Of a DNA stretch of 64,000 nt, positions 1,566 to 3,506 are shown piece by piece. A program made the position numbers and the translations under genes. The stretch comes from an uncultured Saprospiraceae bacterium (GTDB lineage: Bacteria; Bacteroidota; Bacteroidia; Chitinophagales; Saprospiraceae). The notes under the pieces were generated by a model. It saw nothing but the letters and a program-made list of their open reading frames with translations. It was not told the origin of the DNA and ran no database searches. The stretch spans positions 1-64,000 of the forward strand of contig CALCMJ010000038.1 in the NCBI GenBank assembly GCA_937967615.1, written 5' to 3'. Numbering within the stretch: position 1 is the first letter of the stretch; every line of letters starts with the position of its first letter.

Positions 1566-2774
1566 ATGGCAGTAGATAAAACTAAATACCTATCCAAAAA
1601 ACTTCAAAATATGGCAGAGTCTGCTACTTTGAAGATGGCCCAGAAAGCAAGGGATCTCTCCGCGCAAGGAAAGAACGTTATCAGCTTAAGTATAGGCCAG
1701 CCCGACTTTGATACTCCTGATCACATCAAGGAATTTGCTAAGCAAGCATTAGATGATGGATATACAAAGTATACTCCTGTTCCTGGACTGCCTGAACTTA
1801 GAGAAGCGATATCTAAAAAATTTAAGAGAGATAATAATCTCGATTACAATACTAACCAAATTGTTGTTTCTAATGGTGCTAAACAAACCATTGCAAACAT
1901 CATGTTGAGTTTACTTAATCCTGGTGATGAGGTAATAATATTCACGCCCTATTGGGTTTCTTATAATGACATTGTTCGCTTTGCTGGTGGCACACCCGTT
2001 TTTGTCAAAGCAGGTATCGAGAAAGATTTTAAAGTAACACCTGAACAGTTAGAAGCTGCGATAAATCCTAAATCAAAACTTATAATCTTTTCATCGCCTT
2101 GTAATCCTACTGGCTCTGTATATACACATGACGAGTTATTTGAATTAGCAAAAGTGATTGACAAGTATGATAATCTCTTTGTTGTTTCTGATGAAATCTA
2201 TGAACATATCAACTTTCTTGGTAAGCATACCAGTATTGGTGAATTTGATATAGTGAAAGATCAGACGATTACCGTCAATGGATTTGCAAAAGGATTTGCA
2301 ATGACAGGATGGCGATTGGGTTACATGGGTGCACCAGATTGGTTAGCAGTCGCCTGCGCTAAAGTGCAAGGAAACTTTACTTCTGGTGCTAATTCCTTTG
2401 GACAAAAAGCCGCTGCTTTGGCGCTTTCTGGAGATATGGGGCCTACTGAAAAGATGAAGGCCGCTTTTCTTAGGCGAAAAAAACTCGTTCTTTCTTTGAT
2501 CTCGGAAATTCCAGGCATTGTGTGTAATGATCCAGATGGAGCCTTTTACATTTTCCCTGACATCAGTAAGCTATACGGAAGAACAAATGGTCTTCTTACA
2601 ATTAATAACAGTGATGACTTTGCAAACATAATTTTAAGCGAAGCACATGTTGCAGTTGTAGCAGGCGTGGCATTTGGTGATGATAAATGTTTCCGCCTAT
2701 CTTATGCTGCCTCTGACGAAGATCTTGTGGAGGCGATAAGTAGGATTAAAAACTGTTTACAGAATTTTCAATAA
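1566..2774 (+). CDS. aspB: pyridoxal-phosphate aminotransferase, aspartate aminotransferase class I
   Basis: This 402-residue fold-type I aminotransferase probably swaps the amino group between aspartate and 2-oxoglutarate in the cytoplasm. Visible markers are the N-terminal SIGQPDFDTP loop (about 42-51), NPTG at 180-183, DEIY at 209-212, the Schiff-base lysine K242 in NGFAKGFAMTGWRLGY, and the carboxylate-binding arginine in FRLSYA near the C-terminus. Length is normal for the AspB (I-gamma) subgroup. The residue before the lysine is alanine where most relatives have serine, a small change at the cofactor phosphate site. The gene stands alone; 261 bases of unusual non-coding sequence follow it. 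Substrate preference among Asp, Tyr and Phe cannot be settled from sequence. Confidence 0.93.
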   Translation: MAVDKTKYLSKKLQNMAESATLKMAQKARDLSAQGKNVISLSIGQPDFDTPDHIKEFAKQALDDGYTKYTPVPGLPELREAISKKFKRDNNLDYNTNQIVVSNGAKQTIANIMLSLLNPGDEVIIFTPYWVSYNDIVRFAGGTPVFVKAGIEKDFKVTPEQLEAAINPKSKLIIFSSPCNPTGSVYTHDELFELAKVIDKYDNLFVVSDEIYEHINFLGKHTSIGEFDIVKDQTITVNGFAKGFAMTGWRLGYMGAPDWLAVACAKVQGNFTSGANSFGQKAAALALSGDMGPTEKMKAAFLRRKKLVLSLISEIPGIVCNDPDGAFYIFPDISKLYGRTNGLLTINNSDDFANIILSEAHVAVVAGVAFGDDKCFRLSYAASDEDLVEAISRIKNCLQNFQ

Positions 2775-2785
2775 ACTTTTCTTTT

Positions 2786-2935
2786 GGGCATACCCCTACT
2801 GCGTAGGGCCGCAGTATTACGGGCTTGCTGTTCGCGCGGTATTCCAGAGTCATTCTGACTCAGGAACACTAAACCCTCCATGTTGCTTATGCGGGCAAAT
2901 TGAAAGTAAAGTCATGGACTAAGCAATTGCGCGAA
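2786..2935. other. GC-rich structured intergenic element
   Basis: This part of the 261-base gap between two convergent genes has no open frame and about 50% G+C (60% over 2781-2840), against the mid-thirties around it. It contains two compact hairpins: CCCTAC/GTAGGG (2794-2799 with 2803-2808, 3-base loop) and a longer one in 2842-2866 with arms TTCCAGAGTCA and TGACTCAGGAA around a 3-base loop, one A:A mismatch. Outer arms GCATA (2788-2792) and TATGC (2888-2892) could close it. TTCGCGC (2831-2837) is also complementary to GCGCGAA (2929-2935). The layout resembles the palindromic intergenic repeats found in many Bacteroidota genomes. I see no second copy in this window, so repeat status is inference. 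A poly-T terminator is not present. Confidence 0.5.
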
Positions 2936-3035
2936 GGGGTGACTAAGAGAAAGTGGCGTATTTGTTTGTCCCTATTTTTCATCCCGATCCCCACCGAGAG
3001 ATCTATGCTTTCTGAACGATATTGAAAGTTTTAAC

Positions 3036-3506
3036 CTACCCTTCCAATTCCCTCTTAAATTTCACTTGCAAGCCATTTAAAAAATACTTTAAATACTGAT
3101 CCATGCACAGCTCGTATGATTTATTATTAGGATTACGAAAAAAAGCACTTAGCTCATGTTTGCTAATCTTTTTATCTATCAAAGCAAACACTTCTAACAT
3201 ATCTTCAGATTTTAATTCCAAAGCAATTTTCAATTTCCTTAGGATCATATTATTACTTAATGGATCTTCAGCGACTGCTGGAGGGCCTTCTCTTTTTCCA
3301 CGTTTTTCAATGATCAATCCATTTAGAAAAGTGGCAAGTTGTTTATCTGTAATTTCCGCAAATAATGGATCATCTTCGCGTCTCAACCAGTCACAAACTT
3401 CTTCTATCTGAACATCGTAATCCACTAATTTAAACACTGCGATCATTTTGAGATCACTAAAGTTAAACATGTAGCGTATACGTCTTAAGATATCATTGTT
3501 GGTCAT
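3036..3506 (-). CDS. DUF1456 family protein (YehS-like)
   Basis: This 156-residue cytoplasmic protein is made of two tandem DUF1456 units. Each has the pattern (T/S)NN(D/M)ILR(R/K)(I/L)(R/K) at its start (residues 2-10 and about 85-93), then a helical stretch ending in a segment like LATFLNGLIIEKRG or LKYFLNGLQVKFKR. Size matches E. coli YehS. The molecular function of the family is unknown; I know of no catalytic residues. The gene stands alone, convergent with the aminotransferase across the structured element. The start at 3506 gives a normal N-terminus for the family. Confidence 0.85.
   Translation of the reverse strand: MTNNDILRRIRYMFNFSDLKMIAVFKLVDYDVQIEEVCDWLRREDDPLFAEITDKQLATFLNGLIIEKRGKREGPPAVAEDPLSNNMILRKLKIALELKSEDMLEVFALIDKKISKHELSAFFRNPNNKSYELCMDQYLKYFLNGLQVKFKRELEG

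Follow-up and report, generated by a model that had tools for sequence, protein, structure and literature searches.

A dispersed, branched repeat element occupies positions 2786 to 2892, on the minus strand, of the 64,000-nt window analysed here, which lies on contig 38 of the fragmentary genome of an uncultured Saprospiraceae bacterium (G000, 3.79 Mb in 190 contigs). We read it, with a probability of roughly 0.55, as a non-autonomous mobile element that acts as a folded minus strand and whose copies are homogenised by exchange. Sequence comparison set it beside Flavo-1 rather than within it, as a putative, undescribed sister family, and no description of the element came up in the literature that was searched.

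The window holds exactly one copy, with its 5' end at 2892 and its 3' end at 2786, situated between convergent genes for an aminotransferase (PF00155) and a DUF1456 protein. An earlier note on this DNA, made from the letters alone, had described a G+C-rich element with two hairpins and complementary outer ends at 2786-2935. The raised G+C was borne out (0.487 at 2775-2924, versus 0.28-0.45 in the tested windows clear of the core), and the hairpins (2794-2808, and 2839-2869 as bounded here) and the outer pairing GCATA/TATGC, which is P1 in this copy, are real and beyond chance (0 of 500 shuffles). The end had to be moved to 2892, past which the G000 copies share little sequence. The proposed pseudoknot TTCGCGC/GCGCGAA was rejected, as its second half (2929-2935) lies outside the conserved core and its first half belongs to a local helix, P5. 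The layout had been seen; which strand folds, where the core stops and that Flavo-1 is related had been missed. Most cores measure 90-150 nt and form six or seven helices (Table 1).

Table 1. Coordinates of the element and its helices in the window, with the observations that define them.
Feature	Position	Strand	Observations
Whole element (core)	2786..2892	-	Matches of covariance models R1 and R2 end exactly there; homology between copies stops sharply
A-rich flank, 3' of the folded strand, AAAAGAAAAGT on minus	2775..2785	-	AAA after the core in 156/237 copies
P1 arm, pairs with 2888-2892	2788..2792	-	99.1% of cells paired (68 copies); 37/40 G000 copies fully Watson-Crick
P1 other arm, 5' end of the folded strand	2888..2892	-	Same P1 pairing data
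P2 hairpin, 2794-2799 with 2803-2808	2794..2808	-	Length and letters vary among copies; better on minus in 75/79
P3 arm, pairs with 2880-2886	2811..2817	-	7 bp with non-Watson-Crick middle; many compensated states; 96.5% of cells paired
P3 other arm	2880..2886	-	Same P3 pairing data
P4 arm, pairs with 2874-2876	2821..2823	-	Consensus folds; both arms replaced in three G073/G557 orthologous pairs
P4 other arm	2874..2876	-	Consensus folds; G073/G557 replacements
P5 small hairpin	2824..2838	-	99.2% of cells keep the two inner pairs; double changes occur
P6 hairpin, 2839-2845 with 2863-2869 and 2847-2852 with 2856-2861	2839..2869	-	Consensus fold, covariation

On the minus strand the helices follow in the order P1 (5 bp, joining both ends), P3, P4, P6, often P7, then P5, P2 and P1 again, and the closing P1 is followed by CC and an A-tract. 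P5 reads CGAGC-GAAYA-GCGAG in most copies on this strand, which we take to include non-canonical G.A pairs.

Covariation was measured on 68 aligned copies. Paired letters filled 92.8% of the structure cells as compared to 71.5% in shuffles, 404 cells versus 115 had changed on both sides and were compensated, and 31 of the 34 pairs, versus 24, had at least one two-sided change; none of 500 shuffles reached any of the five measures. Because this alignment had been fitted to the model, P1 and P3 were retested without an alignment, using a scan that picks the best-pairing position and so leans towards pairing. P1 was fully Watson-Crick in 37 of 40 copies in G000, 39 of 48 in the sister species G001, 56 of 57 in a further relative, G014, and 6 of 10 others. 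The G000 mean was 4.80 pairs, versus 3.71 with partners permuted; in G014 the test is uninformative because P1 hardly varies there. P3 took the states GCAGTAT/ATGTTGC, GGAGTAT/ATGTTCC, GTAGTAT/ATGTTAC, GCTCCCT/AGGCAGC, GTTCCCT/AGGCAAC, GGTCCCT/AGGCACC and GATCCCT/AGGCATC, among others. Covariation in repeats can stem from exchange between copies, and it need not imply selection on a host RNA.

The strand preference was tested by folding. The window copy with its flanks (2780-2925), folded alone, was unremarkable on the plus strand (z = -0.68) and gave z = -2.63 on the minus strand. In 52 of 54 copies the minus strand had the lower RNA folding energy, as it did, in a second set, in 78 of the 79 copies that could be parsed among 88 from G000 and G001. 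The evidence is not uniform along the element: P6-P7 folded better on minus in 57 of 73 copies, P4-P5 showed no preference (35 of 73), and the tandem wobble in P3 favours plus. Many copies had been found with a minus-strand model, and those found by blast showed the same preference. Since a double-stranded site does not explain the asymmetry, we infer that the element acts as a single strand, either RNA or ssDNA. In neither G000 nor G001 was the Bacteroidota -7 box enriched ahead of the folded strand; its counts were higher in G014 and on the plus side, which we attribute to AT-rich shared flanks. No replication-strand bias was found among the listed copies of two near-complete genomes of one genus, G073 (p = 0.72, 62 copies) and G557 (p = 0.82, 69 copies).

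A blastn search with the gap region gave 12 matches in G000, three in G001, which is of the same genus, and none in 38 other relatives. The covariance model R1, built from 12 copies, found at least 40 copies in G000 (E ≤ 0.1) and at least 48 in G001 (E ≤ 0.05); with 150 of 867 and 150 of 965 candidates scored, these counts are lower bounds, and the E-values are rough. There were at least 57 copies in G014, at least 69 in G073 and at least 75 in G557. The element is thus not single, unconserved or free of compensatory changes, the three outcomes that the earlier note had set against its own proposal. A second model, R2, built from 68 copies, matched 40 of 199 Saprospiraceae genomes in 29 of 112 genera (20 candidates scored per genome) and 17 of 295 class genomes, 14 of them outside the family (13 candidates scored). 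A 17-base pattern run over 395 phylum genomes matched in two and was too specific. Neither plasmids (searched with the window copy) nor phages (searched with a G014 copy) gave a blastn match. A Cyclobacteriaceae record (L068) was set aside; the model did not match it at E ≤ 0.01, and it probably reflects a 20-mer shared by chance. Among 54 copies whose gene context was read, most were intergenic, in every gene orientation, and 14 lay between convergent genes. A dispersed palindromic repeat, either a mobile miniature repeat or an RNA, had been proposed, and in outline this holds, with at least 40 mostly intergenic G000 copies in all orientations; the further suggestion that it is REP-like is not supported, as set out below.

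A transposon-like form was seen in G014, where the core lies inside a unit of ~170 bp with terminal inverted repeats of ~20 bp (GGGTGYATTTCAWWWTGTCG). One form of the end repeat was found at 85 places, and a test on 9 bases put the first core bases 32-36 bp inward in 81 of them. Of 55 places, 18 matched the P5 motif, other subfamilies differing in letters. Target duplications, read by eye, were 9 bp at L147, L149, L153, L154 and L155 and 8 bp at L102 and L145, and other copies in G014 had none in spite of two good inverted repeats (e.g. L144, L159, L163, L168). Direct repeats in G014 exceeded permutation (p = 0.001), partly owing to L129, where the core sits between two near-identical direct repeats of ~45 bp, a possible trace of an insertion or of a tandem event. 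Target duplications were not found in G073 (p = 0.99) or G557 (p = 0.54). In G000 conservation of the flanking columns stopped at -3 and +2, apart from a weak one at +11, and no shared inverted repeats were detected; copy-specific inverted repeats or duplications did not rise above permutation (duplications p = 0.18), a test that is blind to repeats common to all copies and gave p = 0.40 even in G014. No autonomous relative bearing a transposase was found at the 85 places in G014, where reading extended inward for about 2.2 kb at most, as far as the contigs allowed; many of these contigs end inside the repeat.

Pooled over all genomes, 156 of 237 copies had AAA 3' of the fold, against about 8 expected, with a variable run of up to 9. 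Other small sequences lie in or near the cores. ATCGCA/TCGCAA was ~22-fold enriched in the 3' (plus) flank of G000 copies at about +5 to +15, six copies each, and could be what is left of an outer part of the element. A 26-bp palindrome of the CCTGCCTGCGTGCGCACGCAGGCAGG type occurred seven times in 48 G001 loci, in most cases within a core or at its edge (0-based starts: L229 1479, L230 1553, L241 1600, L256 1335, L258 1534, L260 1593 and L272 1605), and was absent from the 30 G000 loci searched; it is a second small repeat that inserts into the element. Another short repeat (GACGACY..AAGG type) follows the A-tract in five of 29 G073 and four of 30 G557 loci (L385, L395, L397, L378), and a block of ~60 bp 3' of the L385 core, with A-tracts on both sides, is missing in the orthologous L395. 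A long near-perfect hairpin at 593-685 of L313 (genome G530), which scored weakly to an unrelated animal miRNA model, is probably another palindromic repeat.

Among 77 G014 rows, picked for recognisable cores, both end repeats had decayed in 16 (score ≤ 8 of 20); 11 of these kept a nearest-core similarity of at least 0.85 and five (L117, L131, L135, L137, L150) did not. Picking by end repeat is the converse, and led to the core at 81 of 85 places. Between the 40 G000 and 48 G001 loci, four orthologous sites had a copy in both species. At the window site the gene preceding the copy is the same in G001 (protein 87% identical), and the G001 copy belongs to a different subfamily. In both species of L037/L231 the last base of the upstream gene's stop codon is the first G of the element; the DNA beyond cannot be aligned. 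R1 had missed the G001 copy of L281/L246, which has rare letters in common with the G000 copy, and L283/L269 is a weaker case, with different spacing and subfamily. Two further pairs (L026/L262 and L035/L272) were not counted, their protein pairings being weak (45-56% over short stretches). At L246 (1501-1595) an ORF seems to be broken up by a young copy in G001, the remainder of whose frame was not found after the copy.

Sixteen orthologous pairs between the close species G073 and G557 gave a closer view of how letters change. Their flanks were 86-100% and their cores 81-99% identical; the core was about as alike as the flanks in 12 pairs and clearly less so in L371/L321, L374/L393, L378/L397 and L385/L395. 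In three of these four pairs (L371/L321, L378/L397 and L385/L395), both P4 arms had changed (GCAG/CTGC to GGG/CCC types), as had P7 along with them, and in L378/L397 and L385/L395 the blocks adjoining the 3' end also differed. P6 and P7 differed as hairpins in L374/L393 and L387/L406, and a matching base was gained on both hairpin arms in L303/L306 and L333/L400. Over 496 pair positions, 392 were unchanged, 20 had two-sided changes and were still paired, five had one-sided changes and were still paired, 11 were broken in one species (partly misaligned hairpins), three were unpaired in both and 65 were gapped. Twenty two-sided changes would be rare from independent point mutations at ~5% divergence; the simplest account would be replacement by a segment of another copy.

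The relation to Flavo-1 (RF01705) was examined with its model and by reading its loci. Flavo-1, an unexplained motif, is one of the candidate structured RNAs described in 2010 (Weinberg 2010, PMC2864571 Table 1). At gathering score no Rfam family was found in the window, and the Flavo-1 model gave no match at 2700-3050 (E ≤ 10), in 18 element loci (E ≤ 10) or in 12 more (E ≤ 1). It matched 42 of 99 class genomes, 22 of them above its cut-off, and had no match in G000. Conversely, R2 matched three of 19 Flavo-1 loci (E = 1.4e-4, 1.9e-4 and 6.7e-3). An outer frame GCGTKAG ... CGACC-P2-GGxACGCCC, common to both, was present in nine of 17 Flavo-1 loci versus 10 of 510 control windows; this frame (P1, P3 and P2) was read at the Flavo-1 loci beyond the Rfam model and is not part of the Rfam definition. 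P1 in Flavo-1 loci is GCGTT, GCGTG, GCGCG or GCCTT.

The preferred reading, a mobile element acting as a folded minus strand, draws on the dispersal, the strand-specific compensated fold, the 3' A-tract, the transposon-like form in G014, persistence at orthologous sites and helix replacement. Under it the acting strand would be single when used, an enzyme supplied in trans would recognise the fold and move the element, and inserted copies would be kept alike by ectopic gene conversion, perhaps together with selection on the fold. Several results count against this reading: inverted repeats and duplications were not found around G000 copies, nor duplications in G073 and G557; some G014 copies have good inverted repeats and no duplication; no transposase-bearing relative was found in G014; and no enzyme is known to move the element. 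The copies kept at orthologous sites would also be compatible with a host function. A structured RNA serving the host, with minus-strand transcripts working as sRNAs or cis elements under purifying selection on the fold, would account for the strand-specific covarying structure and for copies kept where neighbouring DNA was lost, and its relative Flavo-1 is in Rfam as an RNA. We nevertheless consider it unlikely: neither G000 nor G001 shows an excess of -7 boxes ahead of the folded strand, copies lie in all gene orientations, and two-sided changes can come from exchange between copies. According to a transcriptome paper, PMC9723704, Flavo-1 matches are sense or antisense to transcribed regions, with many outside them, and give no real clue to function.

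The A-tract and its variable run, with the RNA-like fold of one strand and the lack of inverted repeats in G000, would also suit a SINE-like retroposon, whose minus-strand RNA would be copied into DNA and integrated at A/T-tracts by a reverse transcriptase from another locus; but the G014 copies, with their inverted repeats and duplications of 8-9 bp, point to a DNA transposase, duplications were not found in G000, G073 or G557, and we give this account little credence. Movement as a REP element by a RAYT (Y1) transposase is very improbable. The repeat is intergenic, palindromic and of high copy number, and Y1 matches were found, one in G000 (29.1 bits) and two in G001, yet G014, with its at least 57 copies, has no match to Y1_Tnp (PF01797). 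An ordinary bidirectional terminator, or chance G+C-rich hairpins between convergent genes, would fit the convergent genes and hairpins of the window, but no T-tract follows the core on either strand there, as the earlier note had rightly said in setting a plain terminator aside, and only 14 of the 54 copies lie between convergent genes. As a full account it is refuted by the 40 G000 copies and the 68-copy covariation, and we attach next to no weight to it. A wider proposal, more speculative than the preferred reading, is that the element and Flavo-1 belong to one class-wide kind, a folded single strand inserted at A/T-tracts in a SINE-like manner, whose copies rewrite each other helix by helix. 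We put it forward as a doubtful idea; if true, tens to hundreds of copies per genome would stay folded while their letters change at least as fast as the surrounding DNA. The choice between a mobile element and a host RNA can now be tested in cultured Saprospiraceae and Flavobacterium.

The element resembles several known systems in part. The G014 form is similar to the MITEs of DDE insertion sequences in its ~20 bp inverted repeats, 8-9 bp duplications, high copy number and lack of coding sequence. Unlike MITEs, the interior of the element is a branched covarying fold, with no shared inverted repeats detected in G000 and no target duplications detected in G000, G073 or G557. REP elements are likewise intergenic palindromic high-copy repeats; the element, with its six or seven helices, is longer and branched, unlike REPs of 20-40 bp as they are described in the part of PMC3733652 drawn on here. 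Flavo-1, like the element, has tens of copies per genome in Bacteroidota. The two differ in the apical half, compared by eye: Flavo-1 has one long hairpin there, whereas the element has three or four inner helices, P4 plus P5, P6 and often P7. The putative sister family in turn reveals outer helices and an A-tract that are absent from the Rfam model of Flavo-1.
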